Assembly: GCF_024662215.1 (NCBI RefSeq)
Contig: NZ_CP096115.1
Span: 1,922,001-1,986,000 of the forward strand
Origin: Methanoplanus endosymbiosus
GTDB taxonomy: Archaea; Halobacteriota; Methanomicrobia; Methanomicrobiales; Methanomicrobiaceae
Direction: 5' to 3'
Length of the DNA stretch: 64,000 nucleotides
Positions 29,830-55,170 of this stretch are shown here, piece by piece. The notes beneath the pieces are model-generated. The model was not told where the DNA came from. It made no database searches and saw nothing but the letters and a program-made list of their open reading frames with translations. The position numbers and the translations under genes were made by a program. The first letter of the stretch is position 1. The number at the start of each line of letters is the position of its first letter.

Positions 29830-32061
29830 TTAAATTCTTTCTGTGTATCTTCTCTCTTCTGTCTCTGCTGCATTCCTCCATTTTTCCATAAGTTCTGAAT
29901 ACTTATCTGTAAATTTATCACTTGTCAGAAGTCCTGTCCCGCTGTTCTCCATTGAGTACAGTATATTTCCTGATTTGAAATCTCCTGCAAGTGTTTCATT
30001 TATTCCGGTTTTCACAGATCCTTCTATATTTTTCACAACCGAAGCGGCTATCACCCCTGGTGCAAGATACGACTGATCAACGTCTTCGCCAATGAGATAA
30101 ACTCCTCCGTGGTTTATTGCCGAATTTACGATGCCTGTATTTGAACTTCCGGCAAGCATGATTATAACGTCCACCCCGGAGTTATACATCCGGTCTGCAA
30201 CCTCTTCTGCTTTATCCGGCATTGAAAAACCTTCAAATCCGGAAGATACATAATTTACCGATGTATAGACATCCGGATCATAGGCATATGCCCCTGCTTT
30301 AAACCCTTCAGTGAACGGTTTTATCACTCCGGCATCAGTTCCGGCAATTATCCCTATATTCTCCGTCTCTGTCATCTCTGCGGCAAGGACTCCGGCAAGA
30401 TATGAACCTCCGTATGGCATGAATGTGCAGACTGCATGATTGCTCAGATTGCTCCCGCTCTGCTCAACTCCGATAAACCTGATGTCAGGGTTCTTCTCTG
30501 CCCAGTCTGCTGTGTATTCATCAAACTCGTAACCTATGGTTATCACAAGGTCTGGTTTTTCTGTAAAACTGCCCGATGCAAATATTTCATTCACTTTCGG
30601 TGCGTCATTCAGTGAGAACTCCCGTTTGATGAAACTGTTCTCTTCATATGCAGAAGAGAGTCCTGTATATGCTGCATCTGCAAAAGAGCGGTCACCTTTC
30701 ACTGAGGGATAGAATATCCAGACTGTGCCTTTTTCTTCACTTGTTTCTGCCGGAATTCCGGTATATGATAGTCCCGGAAGGCGCGGCTGATACTGCTTAT
30801 CTGATGAATAATATTTTCTCTCCCTGAAATCCCCCTCTTCAATGACCCAGCAGGCGTAATAGCCACTGTCCGGCCCAATCATACCGTCTCTGAAGTCAAG
30901 TGTGCCCGAAGCACCTGATACGTCAGGTTTACCTCCTGAAAGTATGTACGAGATCGACTCTCCGGCTTCCTGGCTGTCCCAGCCTTTGTATATGCCTGAG
31001 GTTGCTGTCACGCTTTCAAAGGCTTCTGCATATGTCTCTTCCGGGTGCGTCATATTCCACGCGGCTGTATATGCTGCAAGCATTACCGCGTCATATGTCT
31101 GTGCCGAAAATACTCCCGGAAGTTCTTTATTTCTTATTGAATATGGTATGTAATATCCTGTCGTGGGGTCATATGAGGGTGATATGCCACAGATTCCTTC
31201 CGCATTTATACCAAGTTTCTCAATTATATATGGTGATCTTCCGCCGTCTGTCAGGAAGAGTTCTGCATCTGATCCGGCATCATTCAGGTTCTCCTTTATC
31301 ATAACAGCCTCTTCGGGCATGACTGCGGCTATTATGTAATCCGGATTCAGGGCTGCGATGCTGTAAACCAAGTCTGAGTCCTGGGTTTTGTCATTTGTCA
31401 GTGTTATGCTTTTAATCAGTTCTATTCTGACAGATTCTGCATATTCGGGTGCATATCCGTCAAATGTCCTGCCATAGGCTGAATCCTCATATATAAGGCA
31501 TGCCGATTCTGCGCCCTTCTCTTTTAATATCTCAAAGATTACTGCTGCCTGTGCATGGTCCCCGGTGACTGTTCTTCTGAAATATCCGGAGTCCGTGAAC
31601 TGTGCGGATACTTCCATTGATGAAGCTGAAGGGCTGATCAGCAGTTTTTTATTTTCAATAAATACAGGTGCTGCCTTTAATGCCTCTTCACTTGATGAAG
31701 GGCCGATGAAGATGTTTATATCCGGATCTCCGGCTGCCTCTTCTGCAATCTCTGTGATCTCCTTTCCGTCTGTATCAAAAAAGAGAGCTTTCACAGGTGT
31801 ACCGCCAATTCCGCCGGCGCTGTTTATGTCAGATACTGCCATCTGCACCGGTGTTTTAAAATCAAATATTTCTTCGCCGGATATGGGCAGAAGAACACCT
31901 ATTTTTATTTCTGTTGTGCCCTGTGGCGGGCCGGCAGAGCTGTGGTCTGTTTCAGAACCACCTAAGCATCCGGCTGTGAATATTACCAGTGCAGATGCTG
32001 CAAGAACTGTAAACTGAAAAAAAAGCCTGAAATAATTATTGTAATTTTGTTTTATACCCAT
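29830..32061 (-). CDS. Lipoprotein fusing two periplasmic-binding folds (LivJ-like plus BMP/PnrA-like)
   Basis: 743 residues. A signal peptide with lipobox FTAGCLGG anchors it by Cys31. Domain 1 (about 50-430) is a branched-chain-amino-acid-type receptor: IKIGVLLPISGEEI, INSAGGIGGTPVKALFFDTDG and IFIGPSSSEEALKAAP. Domain 2 (about 450-735) fits the BMP/PnrA/TmpC nucleoside-binding family: DLVITIGYEFDEYTADWA, GGSYLAGVLAAEMTETENIGIIAG and IGEDVDQSYLAPGVIAASVVKN. No permease or ATPase gene is adjacent. Two different solute-binding families in one polypeptide is unusual. It may be a sensor or scavenger rather than part of a classic ABC importer. A CTATATAA box lies about 10-15 bases before the start. 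Confidence 0.82.
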   Translation of the reverse strand: MGIKQNYNNYFRLFFQFTVLAASALVIFTAGCLGGSETDHSSAGPPQGTTEIKIGVLLPISGEEIFDFKTPVQMAVSDINSAGGIGGTPVKALFFDTDGKEITEIAEEAAGDPDINIFIGPSSSEEALKAAPVFIENKKLLISPSASSMEVSAQFTDSGYFRRTVTGDHAQAAVIFEILKEKGAESACLIYEDSAYGRTFDGYAPEYAESVRIELIKSITLTNDKTQDSDLVYSIAALNPDYIIAAVMPEEAVMIKENLNDAGSDAELFLTDGGRSPYIIEKLGINAEGICGISPSYDPTTGYYIPYSIRNKELPGVFSAQTYDAVMLAAYTAAWNMTHPEETYAEAFESVTATSGIYKGWDSQEAGESISYILSGGKPDVSGASGTLDFRDGMIGPDSGYYACWVIEEGDFRERKYYSSDKQYQPRLPGLSYTGIPAETSEEKGTVWIFYPSVKGDRSFADAAYTGLSSAYEENSFIKREFSLNDAPKVNEIFASGSFTEKPDLVITIGYEFDEYTADWAEKNPDIRFIGVEQSGSNLSNHAVCTFMPYGGSYLAGVLAAEMTETENIGIIAGTDAGVIKPFTEGFKAGAYAYDPDVYTSVNYVSSGFEGFSMPDKAEEVADRMYNSGVDVIIMLAGSSNTGIVNSAINHGGVYLIGEDVDQSYLAPGVIAASVVKNIEGSVKTGINETLAGDFKSGNILYSMENSGTGLLTSDKFTDKYSELMEKWRNAAETEERRYTERI

Positions 32062-45713: not shown

Positions 45714-47672
45714 TTACTCTGAAGAATTTTCTGTGTTTATTATATACGGTACTGATGCATTTTTATAATACTGAAACAGTCTCTCTCCCCACATACATGC
45801 TTCAGGTGAAGTGCTTACAAGGTACTCTATAGAATCAAAAAATTTACAGTTGTCTGTCATTAATTTCATCTCAAAATACTTTTCTGTAACTATAATACTG
45901 AATGTGTGTGGGAATTTTGAGATGTGAATTTTTACAAAAGATGTTAATCTTTCATCAATATCCCTGATATGTTCTCTCAATTCAGGTCTCTCTTCTGCTT
46001 CATCTTCTGAAATAACGAATTCACAGTTGTGGTGGCGGCAGATCCGTGGAAATGATATTGACGGAAGGGAATGGAGTGAATAATCTGAAACACCGTGAAG
46101 ATATTTCGGCTCAAGAAGATGACTGCTGTTCAGTTCTTCGTTACTTATTATCTCATCCGGAGAATTATAATGAACTTCAGCATGTATCAGTTCGTACAAT
46201 GTGTCCTTTGCAAAGTCGGGCATCCAGTCGAGTGAGTGCCCTGCCCAGAAGTCTTCATTTCTGTATATAACTGCCGATGTCAGAATATATTCCTCAAGAT
46301 GTACTGCTACAATTCTGCCCTTTTTTGTGAGGCAGTATTCATGATCCTTCTCATCAATGAGTCCTTTCTCTTTTAACCATGCTATTTTAGGTGATAATGC
46401 CACAGAGGAACTTCCGGTAATCTCCCTTAACAGGTACCTGGATTTCATCTCCTCATATAGTGCCAGAAGTATTGTTGTCTGGATGGTAGATCGTATTATT
46501 GCCTGGGCATCTGATTTGTTCCTGATAAAAAAAGAGATGTCTTCTTCACTGTAATCCCTTTCTTCCTGTTCACTGCTCAGTTTATGGCATTCCCTGTTAA
46601 TTGAAATTATAAATCCTTTTATTTTGTCTGCGATTATAGATCCGGGGACAGTGAGCCTGTACTCATTGTTATTTTTATTGACAATATTTTTTTCTTTAAG
46701 AGCTTTAAGCCTTGAAGTGATATTCGGGGTGCTTGAATTGTTAATTTCGCATAATTCCCCCATGTTTTTTGGGCCGTCTGCGAGGGCAAATATAATTGTG
46801 GCGGCTATATCTGCTATAAGTGGGAACTGAATTGCAGCAAGGTTATCTTTATAGTGCTTAAGTTTCATCTCAAGTGATACTGAATGGCTGGCATCGCCCT
46901 CTTTCTTCTCCCCTTTCCTGAGTAATCTCTGGAAGTATGATATATACTGAAGATCTCCCCGACTGTTATAATGCGGCGTGATATAATTCTTATAGCGCTT
47001 TCCCATATATTCCTCATAAAAGATTGTCTCCTCTCCTTCTTCGGCGGTTTTATCTATTAAATTATTTTTTATTTCCGCAATCTGATGGGGAAGAATATCA
47101 TAGAATGACATCCCTGTAATGTCGGGCTTTAAACTGTCTGAAAAAGAATTAATAAAATTTCTGCCCCCTTTGTTGACAGTAATTATTTTTTTGTCAGCAT
47201 TAAGGAGGTATGCTGAATCAGGGGAATGTTCTATCATATCCTGCATTGCCTGTCTCTTATCCGACTGTGTAATTTTAATTATTCTCTCTTCTACAAGGGG
47301 TGGTATTTTTCTTTTAAGTTCAGAACATATACTGTCTATCTCAGCATCCTTTAACAGATAAAAATCAACTCCGGAATTTAAGGCTTCAATTACTACCTCT
47401 TCACTGCTTTTTCCGGTGAATATGATATATGGGATGTCATCTCCCCTGCCTCTGATAATTTTGAGCAGCTCCAGTCCATTCATTCCGGGCATGTCATAAT
47501 CAGATATGATTGTGTCATAGGAGGTATTCTCAGTCATATCGAGTGCCTGCATGCCTGAATGTGCAGAATCTACCTTAAAACCGGTGAGCATCTCCATTGT
47601 GGGTTTAAATGTTTTATGCAGTATGCTTTCATCATCCACATAGAGAATGCTGATCTCTTTTTTTATACTCAT
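45714..47672 (-). CDS. Response regulator: REC-PAS-duplicated winged helix-FilR1-like domain
   Basis: 652 residues. The REC domain (1-125) has YVDDE, the phosphoacceptor Asp58 in SDYDMPGMNG, and FTGKSS. A PAS domain spans about 140-250. Two winged-helix repeats follow: ATIIFALADGPKNMGELCEI around 290-360 and TTILLALYEEMKSRYLLREI around 405-470. Each starts a FilR1-type HTH. The last ~190 residues begin with FWAGHSLDWMPDFAKDTL, fitting the FilR1/DUF1724 ligand-like domain. In methanogens FilI/FilR two-component proteins control methanogenesis genes and filament form. The divergent histidine kinase 254 bp away is the probable partner. Confidence 0.8.
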   Translation of the reverse strand: MSIKKEISILYVDDESILHKTFKPTMEMLTGFKVDSAHSGMQALDMTENTSYDTIISDYDMPGMNGLELLKIIRGRGDDIPYIIFTGKSSEEVVIEALNSGVDFYLLKDAEIDSICSELKRKIPPLVEERIIKITQSDKRQAMQDMIEHSPDSAYLLNADKKIITVNKGGRNFINSFSDSLKPDITGMSFYDILPHQIAEIKNNLIDKTAEEGEETIFYEEYMGKRYKNYITPHYNSRGDLQYISYFQRLLRKGEKKEGDASHSVSLEMKLKHYKDNLAAIQFPLIADIAATIIFALADGPKNMGELCEINNSSTPNITSRLKALKEKNIVNKNNNEYRLTVPGSIIADKIKGFIISINRECHKLSSEQEERDYSEEDISFFIRNKSDAQAIIRSTIQTTILLALYEEMKSRYLLREITGSSSVALSPKIAWLKEKGLIDEKDHEYCLTKKGRIVAVHLEEYILTSAVIYRNEDFWAGHSLDWMPDFAKDTLYELIHAEVHYNSPDEIISNEELNSSHLLEPKYLHGVSDYSLHSLPSISFPRICRHHNCEFVISEDEAEERPELREHIRDIDERLTSFVKIHISKFPHTFSIIVTEKYFEMKLMTDNCKFFDSIEYLVSTSPEACMWGERLFQYYKNASVPYIINTENSSE

Positions 47673-47926
47673 AAAGCATTTTTACTTGTTGTTTATCTAG
47701 TATATATATATTTTTCAATTAAGCGGTTGCATATATCCTCAGATTACAACTATGGATGTATTTATGCTGCTTTATGTGTGGTGTGGAAGGGGATATTTTA
47801 TATGTCTCCGGATTGTTTTATATTTCTCATGAAACATTCACATTCAGGCACCTGAATGCTTCATTTCTATCTGTTGCAGGCAGAAGTTGCCTGCGCATGA
47901 GTGACTTATTGTCAGGACGGTAGTTT

Positions 47927-49789
47927 ATGCAGGAAGGAGTGGAAAAAAAGGCATCACAGCAGACAAAACTGGCACTTGGTTTTTTTGTTATATTTTTCAT
48001 TCTTATTCTGATCATCTCTGTTGCAACATATACCACTTTTAGAACAAGTTTTGAAACTCAGTATGATGATCGTATGGATGATGCGGTTGTTGTTGTGATA
48101 AATCATGTAAATCTGGTTAATACGGGCTTAAATACTTATGAAAATGCCTATGATCGGGAGTTGTTGGAATCATTCTCTCTCTTTTCAGAGGCCTATGAAA
48201 ATTCCGGCGGTGACCCTTCTGCAATTGATCTCAATGTTCTGAGAGATAACATCAGGCTTTCAAATTTTGGAACACTTGAACTATATATCATCAATGAATC
48301 CGGGGTTGTTGAATACAGCACTTATAAACCGGATATAGGGCTTGATTTCAGCAGATATCCGGAATTTTTTGAGAAAATTGATACAATCAGGAAAGGGGAT
48401 GTATTTGTCGGGGATCGTGCAACAGGTGGGTGGTCCGGAGATGTAAATCTTAAGAAATACGCTTATCTTCCCACATATGATCATAAGTATCTGCTCGAAT
48501 TCGGTTTTACATCTGAGGTTTTTGAAGAGGGAAGGAAAGTTTTCAAATACGGTGGTATTGGTGACCTGCTCTCGGAACAGAATTACAATCTCGTCTCATC
48601 AAAGGTGTATAATATTGCATTTAAAGAAGTCGGAGGTGATCTTGCAGATGACCTTACAAGAGAGAATCTCAGAACAGTTTTTAAGGAGGGTTGTGACCTT
48701 GAATATATCAACTCCTCCGGTGAGACGATAACAGAATATATTTTTATTGATCTCAATGACGGAAGCTCTCCTTCTTCAAGCCAGATGAATCTTGCTGTGA
48801 AACTGGTTTTTTCAACCGAAAATCTTAATGATACGCTGGATATGCTCTCATTTTACATCTGGATGTTCATCATTCTTGCCTCCGCCATCAGCCTTTTATC
48901 TGCCTATTATATAGCATATTACTTCACAAAACCGATCAGATCTATAATCCGTGACATTGAGGTTATTGCCGGAGGTGACCTTGATCATCCGATTAATAAA
49001 ACCCAGTCTGCGGAAGGTGAATATCTCAGGGGCGAGATTGAGATTCTCGTACGAAGACTTAAGGGTGAGATCGAACTCTTACAGAAAACCTCTGATAATC
49101 TGGACAGTGAACTTGAAAAGAACAGGCGAAAAGAGGAAGAACTGAAGAAAGTGAATAAAAAGCTGACACTTATATCCGGAATTACACTTCATGATATTCA
49201 GAATCAGATTCTTGCGCTATCTTCATATGTTTATTATATGAGACTTAACAGGGAGAATGGTAAAGATGATGATGATTACTTTAAGTTTATTGATGATATT
49301 GTCCTGGCAGTTAAGGATCACATCTCCTTTGCCTCTGATTACAGACAGGTAGGGCTTAAAAAGCCGGTCTGGCAGAATATAGGTGTACTTGTTGATGAAA
49401 TAATCCGGAAAAGTCCGTTTCCGGATATCAATTTTACAGTCAGTACTGGCAACCTGACTGTTCTGGCAGATTCCATGTTTAAGAGGGTGCTCTTCAATCT
49501 CTTTGAAAACTCCGTCCGGCACGGAAAGGGAGTTACTTCTGTCTCTGTCTCATTTTATGAGTCTGAAGGGTCCGGCCACCTTATTATTGAGGATGATGGG
49601 TGCGGCGTACCTGAGAAAGATAAAGAAAGGATATTTGAAAAGAAATTTGGGGAAAATACCGGCCTTGGCCTCTTCCTGGTACGGGAGATTCTTGCAACAT
49701 CCGGCATGGCTGTTTATGAATCCGGCACAGAAGGGGAAGGTGCGAGGTTTGAGATCTCCATACCTGAGGGGTATTACCGCTTCAGGTGA
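47927..49789 (+). CDS. Sensor histidine kinase: extracellular Cache-like domain, HAMP, kinase core
   Basis: 620 residues. TM1 (about 14-36) and TM2 (about 305-330) flank a ~265-residue outside domain with Cache-type TLELYIINESGVVEYSTY. A HAMP domain follows (YYFTKPIRSIIRDIEVIAGGDLDHP), then a coiled coil. The phosphoacceptor is probably His422 in TLHDIQNQILALSSYVY, a form common in methanogen kinases. The ATPase has N (LFNLFENSVRHG), G1 (IEDDGCGVPEKD) and G2 (GENTGLGLFLVREI) boxes. It faces the REC-PAS-FilR1 gene. Confidence 0.88.
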   Translation: MQEGVEKKASQQTKLALGFFVIFFILILIISVATYTTFRTSFETQYDDRMDDAVVVVINHVNLVNTGLNTYENAYDRELLESFSLFSEAYENSGGDPSAIDLNVLRDNIRLSNFGTLELYIINESGVVEYSTYKPDIGLDFSRYPEFFEKIDTIRKGDVFVGDRATGGWSGDVNLKKYAYLPTYDHKYLLEFGFTSEVFEEGRKVFKYGGIGDLLSEQNYNLVSSKVYNIAFKEVGGDLADDLTRENLRTVFKEGCDLEYINSSGETITEYIFIDLNDGSSPSSSQMNLAVKLVFSTENLNDTLDMLSFYIWMFIILASAISLLSAYYIAYYFTKPIRSIIRDIEVIAGGDLDHPINKTQSAEGEYLRGEIEILVRRLKGEIELLQKTSDNLDSELEKNRRKEEELKKVNKKLTLISGITLHDIQNQILALSSYVYYMRLNRENGKDDDDYFKFIDDIVLAVKDHISFASDYRQVGLKKPVWQNIGVLVDEIIRKSPFPDINFTVSTGNLTVLADSMFKRVLFNLFENSVRHGKGVTSVSVSFYESEGSGHLIIEDDGCGVPEKDKERIFEKKFGENTGLGLFLVREILATSGMAVYESGTEGEGARFEISIPEGYYRFR

Positions 49790-49890
49790 GGTGTTTATGT
49801 TATCTCCGCTATTTTTTTGCCTGTGATGTCTGACAGTTGGTATTGATTAACTATTTCTTTATGTTATTTCAGAACATATTGGATCATAAT

Positions 49891-51543
49891 ATGGTTTCAG
49901 AGAATTTGGAATATAATGATAACAACAGAAAGGTCATCTCCTGTCATGTCCTTGTAATCGGGAGCGGCGGTTCGGGTACAAGGGCGGCAATAGAAGCATC
50001 ACAATCCGGCGAGACTATTCTTGTTACCCGGACGATTGCCGGAAAGGGTGGATGCACAACTATGGCGGAGGGGGGTTATAATGCCGTTATGAAGGAGGAC
50101 GACTCATGTCCTTTGCATGAGGAGGACACTCTTAAAGGCGGTGCATATCTCAATGACCCAAAACTTGTTGATATTCTTGTGAATGAATCTCCGGAAAGGA
50201 TGAATGATCTTGTAAAGTGGGGAGCTGTATTTGACGTGACTCCTGAAAGGGAGATTGCACAGCGTCCTTTCGGCGGGCAGAGATTCCCCCGGACATGCTA
50301 CGCAGGAGACCGGACCGGCCATGAGATTATGATGACCTTAATTGAGCGTCTGAGAAGCAGTGATGTAACGGTGCTTGCTGAGGTGACAGTCATTGAGCTT
50401 CTGAAGGCCGGTGACATTGTCTGCGGTGCTGCCGCGATTGACATAAAAGGTAATCTGGTTATTATTGAGGCAGATGCAGTTGTTCTTGCAACCGGGGGCG
50501 GAACACAGGTATATGACATCTCCACAAACTGCGCCACCGGAAACGGACAGGGATTTGCCATGGGTTACAGGGCCGGGGCAGAGCTGATAGATATGGAGAT
50601 GGTGCAGTTCCATCCTACAGGTGCGGTTCATCCCTATGATGCAAGAGGCCGGCTTATCACCGAGGCTGTCCGTGGTGAAGGTGGTCTTCTCAAAGATTCA
50701 GAAGGCCGTCGTTTCATGGAAAAATATGATCCCGTACGGATGGAGTTATCCACAAGGGATGTTGTATCACGTGCCATCGCAACCGAAATTCTTGAAGGTC
50801 GTGGCACTGATAAGGGCGGTGTCTATCTTGATGTATCCCATCTGGGTGATAAGGAGATTGAGGAGAAACTCCCGGTTATGCTTGAACAGTTCCTTCTGTC
50901 CGGAGTTGACATCAGAAAGGAGCCTATGGAGGTTGCACCGACTGCCCATCATATTATGGGCGGACTGAGGATAACTCCGGAATGCAGGACCACTGTAAAG
51001 GGGCTTTTTGCCTGTGGTGAGGTGACCGGCGGTGTTCACGGTGCCAACCGCCTCGGCGGCAATGCACTGGCTGATACTCAGGTCTTTGGCAGACGTGCCG
51101 GTTTTTATGCCGGAAGTGAGCCTGAGATGGAGAAGGTTGCTGATGAGCATCAGATTGGCATAATCAGGCAGAAGCTTGATTCTTATCTCTCCGGGGATAC
51201 AAATCCTGCTGAAATAAAGAAGCGCCTTAAGAGAGTTATGTGGGATGATGCAGGCATATTCAGAACCGGGGAAAAACTCAAACTCGCTTTAAGGGAGATT
51301 GCAGAACTGAAGAAGTTAAAGCCAAAGGCTGCTGATTCCGGCTCTTTTATTGACTGCTGGACTATCCAGGATATGCTTGAGGTGGCTGAACTGATTGTTA
51401 AAGGGGCAATTATGAGGGAGGAGTCCCGTGGCGCTCATGTGAGAGCTGATATTGAAACTGCGTGGAATGCGGATAAATCTCCGTTTGGGCATACTTTTCA
51501 GTCGATTTCACGCTCAGGTATTGAGAAGAAGGAGGATTGCTGA
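49891..51543 (+). CDS. tfrA: CoM/CoB:fumarate reductase subunit A (flavoprotein)
   Basis: About 550 residues from the ATG at 49891; an earlier in-frame start at 49837 adds 18 hydrophobic residues and is less likely. FAD-binding VLVIGSGGSGTRAAIEA, the TMAEGGYNAVM region, VLATGGGTQVYD, MEMVQFHPTGAV, TEAVRGEGG and HHIMGGLRI are as in fumarate reductase/succinate dehydrogenase flavoproteins. With TfrB it reduces fumarate with coenzyme M and coenzyme B thiols, giving succinate for biosynthesis and heterodisulfide. Its stop overlaps the tfrB start (TGATG). Confidence 0.9.
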   Translation: MVSENLEYNDNNRKVISCHVLVIGSGGSGTRAAIEASQSGETILVTRTIAGKGGCTTMAEGGYNAVMKEDDSCPLHEEDTLKGGAYLNDPKLVDILVNESPERMNDLVKWGAVFDVTPEREIAQRPFGGQRFPRTCYAGDRTGHEIMMTLIERLRSSDVTVLAEVTVIELLKAGDIVCGAAAIDIKGNLVIIEADAVVLATGGGTQVYDISTNCATGNGQGFAMGYRAGAELIDMEMVQFHPTGAVHPYDARGRLITEAVRGEGGLLKDSEGRRFMEKYDPVRMELSTRDVVSRAIATEILEGRGTDKGGVYLDVSHLGDKEIEEKLPVMLEQFLLSGVDIRKEPMEVAPTAHHIMGGLRITPECRTTVKGLFACGEVTGGVHGANRLGGNALADTQVFGRRAGFYAGSEPEMEKVADEHQIGIIRQKLDSYLSGDTNPAEIKKRLKRVMWDDAGIFRTGEKLKLALREIAELKKLKPKAADSGSFIDCWTIQDMLEVAELIVKGAIMREESRGAHVRADIETAWNADKSPFGHTFQSISRSGIEKKEDC

Positions 51544-53009
51544 TGGAGAATATCAATATTAAGATCTCACGCTTCAGCCCGGACAGAGATGACAAACCGG
51601 AGCTGAAAGATTATAACGTACAGCTCAATGACGGTGCAATGGTTCTTGATGCCCTCATTTATGTTAAGGATAATCTTGACCAGACTCTGGCGTTCAGGTA
51701 CTGCTGCCGGGCAGGCCAGTGCGGGAGCTGTGCCATAAAGATGAATGGTGAACCTGTTTTAGCCTGCATGACTACGGCAGTGGATGGTATGGTCATTGAG
51801 CCGCTTGACTTTCCGGTGATAAAGGATCTCATCACTGATATTGAACCTGCACTGAAGGATATTCCGGGAGTTGTGCCATGTGAGTCCTCAGAAATCCCGA
51901 CAAAAGAGCAGATCGATGCGATAAAGCCTTTAAGGGATTGTATTGAGTGTCTCTGCTGTGTATCTGCATGTCCGGCGATGAAGGTCGTGGATTTTAAAGG
52001 GCCGACTGTAATGAGGCAGGAGATGAGACTTGAGCTTGATCCAAGGGATGTAAGAAATTTTGTTCCGGGAGCGGTAAATGAGGGTCTTTTTACCTGCACT
52101 TCATGCCAGAAATGCGTCGAGGTCTGCCCGAAGGATATCAGGATGCCACATAAGGCGATAGAGAAACTGCGTGAGCTTGCAAACCGGCAGGGCTTTACAC
52201 TTCCGAGGCACCAGGAGGTTGCAGAGCTTGTAAAGGTCACCGGAAGAAGTGTTGATCTGCAGAAGGAGACCTTATTCAGCCAGGTTCCTGAAGTTATTGA
52301 GCCTGAGGGTGAGGTCAGGGCTGAGGTCGGCTTCTTTGTCGGCTGCATGTACAATATGAGGGTTGTGCAGAACGGTCTTGATGCTCTTGAGGTTTTAAAG
52401 AGAAACGGGGTGCGGGTGATTATTCCAAAGGATCAGGTCTGCTGCGGCTCTCCGCTTATACGGACCGGACAGACGTCCTTTCTTGATGAGCTTAAGAGAA
52501 AGAATATCGAATGCTTTGAGAAGAGGGGTATTAAGAGGGTGATGACGATGTGCGCCGGATGTGGCTCCACTCTTAAAAACGACTATGATACTCCTTATGA
52601 GGTTATTGATATCAATGAGCTGTTAACAGAGATTGGTATTGAGCTTCCTGAAAAACTTGATGTAAAGGTGACCTATCATGACCCATGCCATCTTAAGAGA
52701 GGGCAGGGTGTGGAGAGTGAGCCGAGGGAGATTCTCAGAATGATCACCGATGATTTCGTTGAGATGCCGTCTATATGCTGTGGTGCAGGTGGTGGTGTCA
52801 GGTCGGGCCTGCCTGATGTGGCTGCAAGCCTTGGTAAGCTTAGAGATGAAGAGATCAAAAAGACCGGCTGTGATATTGTGGTCACATCATGCCCCTTCTG
52901 TGAATTTCATATTCAGGATTCCACAGATAAGCCTGTGAAGAATATAAATTCACTTCTTCTTGAGGGCTACCGGAAGAAGGATGCTCTGAAGTCCGAAGAT
53001 GAGAAGTGA
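51543..53009 (+). CDS. tfrB: CoM/CoB:fumarate reductase subunit B (Fe-S, CCG domains)
   Basis: About 488 residues from the ATG at 51543 with GGAGG eight bases upstream. The N-terminal third is like the SdhB/FrdB iron-sulfur subunit: a [2Fe-2S] motif (CCRAGQCGSCA) and ferredoxin-type clusters at CIECLCCVSACPAMK and CTSCQKCVEVCPKD. The C-terminal half has two CCG repeats, as in heterodisulfide reductase HdrB (VCCGSPLIRTG and ICCGAGGGVR). This fusion is diagnostic of TfrB and explains the thiol-oxidising activity. Confidence 0.93.
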   Translation: MENINIKISRFSPDRDDKPELKDYNVQLNDGAMVLDALIYVKDNLDQTLAFRYCCRAGQCGSCAIKMNGEPVLACMTTAVDGMVIEPLDFPVIKDLITDIEPALKDIPGVVPCESSEIPTKEQIDAIKPLRDCIECLCCVSACPAMKVVDFKGPTVMRQEMRLELDPRDVRNFVPGAVNEGLFTCTSCQKCVEVCPKDIRMPHKAIEKLRELANRQGFTLPRHQEVAELVKVTGRSVDLQKETLFSQVPEVIEPEGEVRAEVGFFVGCMYNMRVVQNGLDALEVLKRNGVRVIIPKDQVCCGSPLIRTGQTSFLDELKRKNIECFEKRGIKRVMTMCAGCGSTLKNDYDTPYEVIDINELLTEIGIELPEKLDVKVTYHDPCHLKRGQGVESEPREILRMITDDFVEMPSICCGAGGGVRSGLPDVAASLGKLRDEEIKKTGCDIVVTSCPFCEFHIQDSTDKPVKNINSLLLEGYRKKDALKSEDEK

Positions 53010-53100: not shown

Positions 53101-53571
53101 TTGATTGTAATAGGAATTGATCCCGGACTGGCCCGTGTCGGTTTTGGTGTAATTAAGGAAGAGAGGGGAAGGATAACGGCCCTTGAATACGGGTGCATCG
53201 AGACCGGTTGTGAACTCAGGTGTTCTGAGAGGCTTCTTGAGATATATAATGCCCTCTCTGAGCTTTTCGGAAAATACGAAGCTGACTGTATCGCAGTTGA
53301 AAAGCTCTTCTTTTCAAGGAATACAACCACTGCCCTGAGTGTCAGTGAGGCCCGCGGAATAATTCTTCTGGCAGCGGAGCAGAAGGGAATTCCTATAACG
53401 GAATTTACACCAAACCAGATCAAGCAGGCAGTGACTGGTTCGGGCAGGGCTGACAAACGGCAGATGCAGGATATGATCAAAAGGCTGCTTGGCCTTGATA
53501 AGATTCCGCGTCCGGATGATGCAGCAGACGGGCTTTCGATTGCTTTATGCCACATTCACATGGTAAGATAA
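53101..53571 (+). CDS. ruvC: RuvC Holliday-junction endonuclease
   Basis: 156 residues from a TTG start. Catalytic acids are in place: Asp in IGIDPGLARVG, Glu in AVEKLFFSRN, and two Asp in RPDDAADGLSIAL. The length matches bacterial RuvC. It nicks Holliday junctions as a dimer. It leads the ruvC-ruvA-ruvB operon. Archaea usually use Hjc for this step, so the gene is probably of bacterial origin. I do not see the archaeal Hjc in this window. Confidence 0.93.
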   Translation: MIVIGIDPGLARVGFGVIKEERGRITALEYGCIETGCELRCSERLLEIYNALSELFGKYEADCIAVEKLFFSRNTTTALSVSEARGIILLAAEQKGIPITEFTPNQIKQAVTGSGRADKRQMQDMIKRLLGLDKIPRPDDAADGLSIALCHIHMVR

Positions 53572-53572
53572 T

Positions 53573-54172
53573 ATGATTGCGCAATTGTACGGAATTCCGG
53601 TGCAGACCGGAGATAAATGGGCTGTTCTGGATGTCGGAGGTGTAGGTTACAGGGTTTTTCTTCCGAAATCATCACTGGACGGACTCTCCGTATCGGGCGA
53701 TAAACCTGTCAGAATATATACAAATATGGTGGTCAGGGAGGACTCGGTTGCACTGTACGGATCACTGCACCCGAACGAGGTCGAGATGTTTGCGGTGCTG
53801 ATCACTGTCTCCGGAGTCGGCCCTCAGACTGCCCTTAATATCATATCACAGATCAGCACTGAGGAGTTTGCATTTGCGATATTAAATGATGATGAGAAGG
53901 TGCTGACAAAAATATCCGGAATCGGGCCAAAGAGTGCAAAGAGGCTGATTCTTGAACTCCGGGATAAGATGAAGAAGATCAGCGAGACGATAGTCACCTC
54001 TGATTCCGGAACGAAAATTCCGGTGATGAACGATGCTGTCAGTGCCCTTTTATCACTTGGATTTCAGGAGAAGGAGTCAAGGACTGCGGTTGAGGCTGTG
54101 GCGGCAGAATGTGGCGATTCCTCCCTCCAGGAACTTATACGCAATGCACTTGCAGAACTTAAGGAGTACTGA
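53573..54172 (+). CDS. ruvA: RuvA Holliday-junction DNA-binding protein
   Basis: 199 residues. The N-terminal OB fold ([25 protein letters not shown]) is followed by two helix-hairpin-helix motifs ([15 protein letters not shown] and [20 protein letters not shown]). The C-terminal three-helix domain III ([19 protein letters not shown]) contacts RuvB. The ATG is one base after the ruvC stop. Confidence 0.95.
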
Positions 54173-54177
54173 CTGTT

Positions 54178-55170
54178 ATGGATGAAAGGATTGTCTCACC
54201 TGAGTCTGCCGGTGATGACGTTTATGAGGCAACGATAAGGCCGGAAAACCTTGAGAGCTTTGTGGGGCAGGAGCAGGTCAGGGAGTCACTTAGTATTGCA
54301 ATTGAGGCAGCAAAGATGCGGGGTGAACCTCTGGATCATATCCTCTTCTCAGGGCCGCCAGGGCTTGGCAAGACAACTCTTGCAAATATCATCGCCAATG
54401 AGATGGACTCTGCCATAAAGACGACTACCGGGCCTGTGCTTGAAAAACCCGGCGATGTTGCGGCACTTCTGACTGCACTGAAACGCGGGGATATTCTCTT
54501 TATAGATGAGATTCACAGGATAAACTCCGTTGTTGAGGAGATACTCTACCCTGCAATGGAGGATCTCTTCATTGATATCATGATCGGTGAAGGGCCGAGT
54601 GCAAGGTCAGTAAAGTTAAATCTTGAACATTTCACTCTCATTGGTGCAACGACAAAGCAGGGACTTTTGGGTTCTCCGTTTAGGGACAGGTTCGGTATAA
54701 TCTTACGTCTTTCGCTTTATACTCCGGAAGAACTAAAGAAAATTGTCTTACGGAGTGCCTCGATATTAAAAATTGAGATTACATATGAGGGTGCCGGGGA
54801 GATTGCTGCAAGAAGTCGTGGCACTCCGAGGATTGCTAACCGGCTGCTCAGAAGAGTGCGTGATTATGCCTCTGTTAAGGGTGACGGTACGGTTACAGAG
54901 GAGATTGCATCCGGGGCACTGGCTATGCTTCAGATCGATGAAATCGGGCTTGATGAGCTTGACAGGCGGATATTATCCGTAATTTCGGATGACTTCGATG
55001 GCGGGCCTGTCGGGGTAAAGACGATTGCGATTTCTGTCGGTGAGGAAGTCCGGACAATTGAGGATGTCTATGAGCCGTATCTCATTCAGATCGGCTTTAT
55101 AAAAAGGACTCCACAGGGCCGGGAGACAACACCGGCTGCAAAGGAGCATCTTCTGTTGTCCGGAAAATAA
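54178..55170 (+). CDS. ruvB: RuvB branch-migration ATPase
   Basis: 330 residues, the usual RuvB length. It opens with the family motif [18 protein letters not shown]. Walker A is [15 protein letters not shown] and Walker [11 protein letters not shown]. The sensor-1 segment [12 protein letters not shown] and arginine-finger SPFRDRFG are intact, and the winged helix ends with [12 protein letters not shown]. It drives branch migration with RuvA. It is convergent with the AlbA_2 gene only three bases away. Confidence 0.95.

Follow-up and report, generated by a model that had tools for sequence, protein, structure and literature searches.

Two-component systems with DNA-binding output are a minority among archaeal signalling systems: a 2018 census counts 116 HTH-containing proteins among 1,875 archaeal response regulators, holds that most archaeal signalling proceeds via protein contacts, and reports that REC genes frequently lie beside HTH genes, with contact between their products undemonstrated (PMC5847659). 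The closest described systems are known from methanogens. FilR1 of Methanosaeta harundinacea is composed of an N-terminal winged helix, a DUF1724 domain, and a C-terminal REC domain (PMC5847659, PMC3991700); its gene is divergent from filI-filR2, phosphate is transferred from FilI to FilR1, and FilR1 binds both promoters (PMC3991700). The Msr regulators of Methanosarcina combine an HTH domain with DUF1724 and are encoded near a hybrid kinase (PMC11784639), and the LtrK/LtrR system of Methanococcoides burtonii has an HTH-REC regulator (PMC5847659). Here we describe a divergent kinase and regulator gene pair in a 64,000-nucleotide stretch of the Methanoplanus endosymbiosus genome (NZ_CP096115.1, positions 1,922,001 to 1,986,000; the window). 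Judged by domain content and by analogy, this is probably a FilI/FilR1-like two-component system whose regulator has been rearranged, with REC first and the winged helix doubled, and in which the neighbouring kinase is the partner.

The regulator gene (652 residues, minus strand) and the kinase gene (620 residues, plus strand) are separated by 254 bp, and the coordinates, strands, lengths, and spacer given for the pair in a preliminary description of this DNA are exact. The features of the locus, in window coordinates, are as follows.

45714..47672, minus strand: response regulator gene, 652 residues, in the order REC, probable PAS, first winged helix (HTH1), second winged helix (HTH2), FilR1_middle (open reading frame, Pfam, and a same-length ortholog with 80% identity)
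47316..47648, minus strand: REC domain, residues 9-119 (Pfam, 82.7 bits; D58, T86, and K108 invariant)
47226..47339, minus strand: long helix, residues 112-149, running from the last REC helix to PAS (AlphaFold model, predicted local distance difference test score [pLDDT] mostly >80)
46944..47231, minus strand: probable PAS domain, residues 148-243 (sub-cut-off PAS_4 score; strands and helices in a PAS-like order in the model, with low confidence in the last strands)
46593..46859, minus strand: HTH1, residues 272-360 (HTH_5, profile match to solved winged helices, hhalign match to HTH2)
46275..46523, minus strand: HTH2, residues 384-466 (HVO_A0261_N, profile match to solved winged helices, single-HTH relatives, 88% identity in the ortholog)
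45759..46121, minus strand: FilR1_middle domain (PF08350, formerly DUF1724), residues 518-638 (Pfam, 35.1 bits)
47673..47926, no strand: shared spacer, 254 bp (conserved at both ends in the same-genus genome)
47701..47712, minus strand: TATA-like stretch with GAAAA (BRE-like) upstream (sequence and ortholog alignment; predicted promoter)
47841..47858, no strand: perfect inverted repeat, 8 bp with a 2-bp gap, CATTCAGG-CA-CCTGAATG (absent from the ortholog; candidate operator)
47927..49789, plus strand: membrane histidine kinase gene, 620 residues, in the order transmembrane segment, extracytoplasmic sensor, transmembrane segment, HAMP, DHp, HATPase (open reading frame, Pfam, solved-kinase profile, and an ortholog with 83% identity)
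48059..48823, plus strand: extracytoplasmic sensor region, residues 45-299 (located by the hydrophobic stretches that flank it in the sequence)
49190..49192, plus strand: H422 of the H-box (H-D-I-Q-N-Q), the predicted phosphorylated histidine (invariant in 13 homologs)

The receiver is the most clearly assigned part of the regulator. Response_reg (PF00072) matches residues 9-119 with 82.7 bits, and D13, D14, D58, T86, and K108 are all present, with D58, T86, and K108 invariant across 17 REC proteins. By comparison with CheY we take D58 to be the phospho-acceptor and the D13/D14 acidic pair, T86, and K108 to be acceptor-site residues, and the sequence thus has every residue expected of a working receiver. 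The FilR1 domain is similarly recognizable, with FilR1_middle scoring 35.1 bits at residues 518-638 (cut-off, 27) and 31.3 bits in the ortholog; a search for its solved relatives gave none. Both domains had been named in the preliminary description. The PAS domain proposed there is probable, with PAS_4 matching residues 148-243 below its 23.1-bit cut-off in both the regulator (18.6 bits) and its ortholog (20.1 bits). An AlphaFold model of residues 1-262, built with 17 REC-PAS sequences (mean pLDDT, 79), has a confident receiver followed by the long helix (112-149) and by strands and helices in a PAS-like order, the last of these strands falling in part below a pLDDT of 50. Foldseek does not confirm PAS: receiver-domain proteins made up all of the top 50 matches to the model, with no PAS among them.

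Two winged helices, as opposed to a single true one, had also been proposed, and profile comparison bears this out. HTH_5 (ArsR-type) matches residues 293-333 with 25.1 bits (cut-off, 22), HTH_45 scores 36.9 bits, and HVO_A0261_N, the N-terminal winged-helix region of the HVO_A0261 family, scores 68.2 bits in two stretches, placing the second HTH at 387-463. When the HTH1 and HTH2 regions of 14 relatives were aligned separately, the two profiles aligned end to end over 81 columns (hhalign, probability 99.4, E 1.9e-21), and each profile, searched alone, found solved winged-helix proteins; on this evidence the regulator has two genuine winged helices. Single-HTH relatives align from HTH2 onward and through FilR1, so HTH2 is the older, inherited helix and HTH1 an added copy. 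A tree of HTH domains, which took 17 of the 33 available single-HTH sequences, places the HTH1 copies of 14 proteins and those from the genus g4 together with weak support (86/74), the pattern expected if there was one old duplication.

Both genes are kept, in divergent order, in a second genome of the genus (G025, locus L114), where the regulator is 80.2% and the kinase 83.4% identical. Between the window and G025, the regulator has a ratio of nonsynonymous to synonymous substitution rates (dN/dS) of 0.14 and the kinase one of 0.12, and because the divergent order persists and both genes are under purifying selection, the pair is not a chance arrangement. The neighbourhoods also share a HEAT-repeat protein, a fumarate-reductase-type pair in the same order, and ruvCAB. 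Within the regulator, REC is the best conserved domain (93% identity; dN/dS, 0.05), followed by HTH2 (88%), FilR1 (79%), PAS (77%), and HTH1 (76%), and the linker between the two helices is only 46% identical; this profile fits selection acting on separate domains, most strongly on REC and HTH2.

The kinase has an intact catalytic core. HATPase_c scores 63.4 bits, H422, D423, and N426 of the H-box are invariant across 13 homologs, and the N, G1, F, and G2 box residues are among the invariant columns of the alignment. A profile of these homologs aligns with solved HAMP domains and, starting at the H-box, with solved cores of the HK853 type; HAMP is below cut-off in the window kinase itself and is matched in 12 of the 13 homologs. 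The protein had been called a Cache-HAMP kinase, and the HAMP and kinase core hold up. The Cache assignment is not confirmed: none of the 13 homologs matches a Cache family in Pfam at E up to 1, a profile search of the ∼255-residue sensor, with an E limit of 5, finds no relative among solved structures, and an AlphaFold model predicted from the sensor sequence alone is unusable (mean pLDDT, 37). Orthologs in the genus g5 (L182-L186) are 42 to 44% identical over their length, sensor included, and each is divergent from a radical-SAM/SPASM gene (by Pfam in three of the five; the other two read alike); it is possible that this arrangement represents a kinase-controlled maturase.

The domain combination of the regulator is rare. 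We searched 232 genomes of the order with a profile built from 14 double-helix FilR1 units, an architecture check that the preliminary description had suggested, and the full-length matches are the 14 profile-building genes themselves, in 10 genomes (9 of the 28 in the window's family and 1 of another family). The remaining matches listed extend at most over HTH2 and FilR1 (from about position 83) and are single-helix or partial relatives. Among the matches listed, frames longer than 500 residues are the window gene, its ortholog, and genes in G127 (585) and G120 (508). Of these, all but the G120 gene are matched by a receiver profile, and REC fused to a double-helix FilR1 unit was thus seen in 3 of the 232 genomes. 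In a 392-genome sample of the phylum, the window gene and its ortholog are the only frames of >500 residues among the matches listed. Matches retained in a search of genome contigs with the full-length regulator correspond to its REC/PAS part.

The third fusion, in G127 (L115:3807-5561), is a 584-residue chain with an N-terminal REC, a partial PAS, and the double-helix FilR1 unit. In a tree of 67 relatives it groups with unfused proteins of the genus g7 (100/100), apart from the window pair. Well-supported branches force two fusion changes, a single origin is seen in 0 of 200 bootstrap trees, and forcing the three fused proteins into one group lowers the log-likelihood by 41.9 units (approximately unbiased test, p 6.9e-5; several branches are long, and the test shares any model bias). 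By this phylogeny, REC has been fused to the double-helix FilR1 unit at least twice independently. The second fusion needs checking, since G127 is a 76%-complete metagenome-assembled genome (MAG) and the fused gene lies on a 5.8-kb contig. We considered and rejected a simple read-through of adjacent genes at L115: the g7 REC gene is downstream of the double-helix gene, and the REC domain of the fusion is N-terminal.

REC genes also occur beside unfused relatives. In all three g4 genomes a shorter two-helix protein without FilR1 is followed 136 to 198 bp on, on the same strand, by a REC-only gene, and in all three g7 genomes the L123-type gene is followed, 0.9 to 3.0 kb downstream and on the same strand, by a REC-PAS-PAS-type gene. 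A REC or kinase gene is found within 1.5 kb in 5 of 18 double-helix rows and in 3 of 52 others (Fisher p 0.023), a weak difference given that REC-fused rows are excluded, 1 of the 18 is a truncated second copy, flanks are unequal, and related genomes are not independent. The two independent REC joins, together with the unjoined REC neighbours in relatives, constitute Rosetta-stone evidence that the family is a REC-signalling output, and suggest that double-winged-helix FilR1 proteins take orders from sensor kinases. We note that the g4 loci (L223:4153-5483, L224:4045-5349, and L225:3666-4973) look like a split version of the window regulator. The window's own genome (C1) also carries a paralog of the double-helix FilR1 unit (L226:10002-11270, 422 residues), with a REC-kinase gene (L226:5465-8854, 1,129 residues) 1.15 kb downstream on the same strand.

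The shared spacer was compared with that of G025 for conserved sites, as had been proposed. It is conserved beside the regulator start and at the kinase start, and its middle has drifted, leaving only the regulator core promoter and the kinase start as strongly conserved. The promoter is predicted from a GAAAA-TATA element about 30 nucleotides before the regulator ATG in both genomes. The 18-bp hyphenated palindrome at 47841-47858 was tried and rejected as a regulon motif: it is missing from the G025 spacer, and three of its four near-matches elsewhere in the genome (two or fewer mismatches; reversed-pattern control, 0) are inside open frames. The spacer also contains a 13-nucleotide imperfect direct repeat (TTTTATATGTCTC / TTTTATATTTCTC, 47796-47828) with 20-bp spacing.

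These observations are best accommodated by a phosphorylation-controlled transcription regulator, the most likely role of this protein, with the neighbouring kinase as its probable partner because the divergent position is conserved and FilI/FilR1 provides a precedent. An extracytoplasmic signal would alter the kinase and be relayed by HAMP, H422 would be phosphorylated, and the phosphate would pass to D58 of REC. The long helix between REC and PAS, together with PAS, could relay this state to the DNA-binding unit of two helices and FilR1, or could contribute a further, internal signal. Judging from FilR1, the regulator probably acts on both promoters of the pair and on other genes, and the HTH1 copy likely widens the DNA contact of a single chain. 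Monomer binding and the bridging of two sites, which the preliminary description suggested for the duplicated HTH, are candidate roles for it. Phosphotransfer, DNA binding, and autoregulation are steps that we infer; the direct coupling of an external signal to DNA binding that the preliminary description envisaged is a link that this domain architecture would make.

Several findings weigh against pairing this kinase with this regulator, or against the wider parallel with FilI/FilR1. The g5 kinase orthologs have no REC gene in the flanks searched (∼4 kb), so the pairing is not ancestral, and the kinase is older than its association with the regulator. Kinase relatives at E up to 1e-40 are present in 200 of the 232 genomes, and a first look at the window genome gives at least 43 candidate kinases of this sort, another of which may serve the receiver. 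No conserved operator was found in the 254-bp spacer by alignment with G025, and six unfused double-helix loci with wider flanks (L116, L117, L125, L228, L229, and L230) have no REC gene near. In Methanosarcina, two Msr regulators were excluded from the relay of a nearby kinase by preliminary data that PMC11784639 cites. It could accordingly be argued that the regulator is truly phosphorylated by some kinase other than its divergent neighbour, the neighbourhood being incidental or reflecting shared regulation, as the g5 orthologs, the many kinases of the genome, and the absence of a kinase from the second fusion's 5.8-kb contig would allow. We regard this as unlikely, since the divergent pair is kept in both comparable species of the genus and the same layout is found in FilI/FilR1, whose pairing is proven. 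Less probable still is a mainly one-component regulator that responds to a small-molecule ligand of PAS or FilR1_middle, with REC contributing little. FilR1_middle and the HTH domains are far commoner without REC, and a probable PAS domain is present, but REC is the part best conserved between the two species, with all acceptor-site residues intact.

The role of the added helix is a separate matter. HTH1 evolves faster than HTH2 (76 versus 88% identity; dN/dS, 0.24 versus 0.09), and it may have lost DNA binding and become a module for dimerization or protein contact, one site being read as in single-helix relatives. We favour this less than a second DNA contact, although it is the most credible of the alternatives weighed here, because the HTH1 sequences of 14 relatives still fit a winged-helix profile and match HTH2 along its whole length, and the HTH1 copies mostly cluster on the weakly supported domain tree, as if retained since one duplication. 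An assembly or sequencing error that joined two genes deserves mention only because the second fusion sits on a short MAG contig; for the window gene it has a negligible probability and is refuted by the ortholog, the same 652-residue frame being present in G025 as in the window genome, both of them single contigs.

Extending the two-component interpretation of the window pair to the whole family is tentative. Double-winged-helix FilR1 proteins could be a dedicated DNA-binding output for phosphosignalling that gained REC repeatedly, by fusion (the window and G127) or as a neighbouring gene (g4, g7, and the own-genome paralog), a generalization that we put forward as speculative. If true, many 'orphan' archaeal REC proteins would act on DNA through double-helix FilR1 partners, and the doubled helix would allow binding by a single chain with no need of the usual dimer switch. 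With just two genes supplying a single kinase, REC domain, and DNA-binding unit, the window pair makes the question directly testable.

Genes flanking the pair are conserved as well. The first gene after the kinase, on the kinase strand, codes for a flavoprotein (FAD_binding_2/Succ_DH_flav_C) of the fumarate reductase type, and this gene and that of an iron-sulfur/CCG subunit (49837-53009, plus strand) begin 48 bp past the kinase; the pair is possibly cotranscribed with the kinase and a candidate target of the regulator. A complete ruvC-ruvA-ruvB cluster follows at 53101-55170 (plus strand; RuvC, 170.7 bits; RuvA_N, 68.8; RuvB_N, 257.3), with 86 to 95% identity to the copies in the same-genus genome. 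These are bacterial-type Holliday junction genes and are unusual in a methanogenic archaeon. Elsewhere in the window, a gene at 29833-32061 (minus strand) codes for two different periplasmic-binding domains, Peripla_BP_6 and then PnrA-like Bmp, in one protein.

Compared with described systems, the window pair is closest to FilI/FilR1/FilR2 of Methanosaeta (Methanothrix) harundinacea, with which it shares a HAMP-containing membrane kinase and a divergent regulator composed of HTH, FilR1_middle, and REC. The preliminary description held that known FilR proteins are either HTH-FilR1 or REC only; this is contradicted by the published accounts of FilR1 as HTH-DUF1724-REC (PMC5847659, PMC3991700), and REC, HTH, and a FilR1 domain in one protein are therefore already published. 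FilR1 as described there has one HTH and a C-terminal REC, whereas in the window regulator REC is N-terminal and is followed by the probable PAS and a doubled HTH. FilR2, a REC-only protein cotranscribed with FilI, has no counterpart beside the window kinase, where a flavoprotein gene follows instead, and the CHASE4, PAS, and GAF domains of FilI are not detected by Pfam in the window kinase; by its domain order and the absence of an adjacent FilR2 gene, the pair falls outside the FilI/FilR1/FilR2 system itself. The Msr regulators, described as HTH plus DUF1724, share those two domains, and the window protein adds REC, probable PAS, and a second HTH. LtrK/LtrR likewise pairs a kinase with a response regulator that binds DNA, also in an archaeon, and no FilR1 domain is mentioned for it. 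Double-winged-helix FilR1 proteins of the Methanomicrobiaceae (L116, L117, L119, L123-L125, and others) have the same HTH1-HTH2-FilR1 unit without REC or PAS, and the G127 protein shares REC and the double-helix FilR1 unit, differing in its partial PAS, its separate origin, and the lack of a kinase on its contig. No published description of a REC-PAS-HTH-HTH-FilR1 architecture was found in a literature search that covered few subscription papers. What is new relative to FilR1 is the REC-first order, the probable PAS domain, and the duplicated winged helix.

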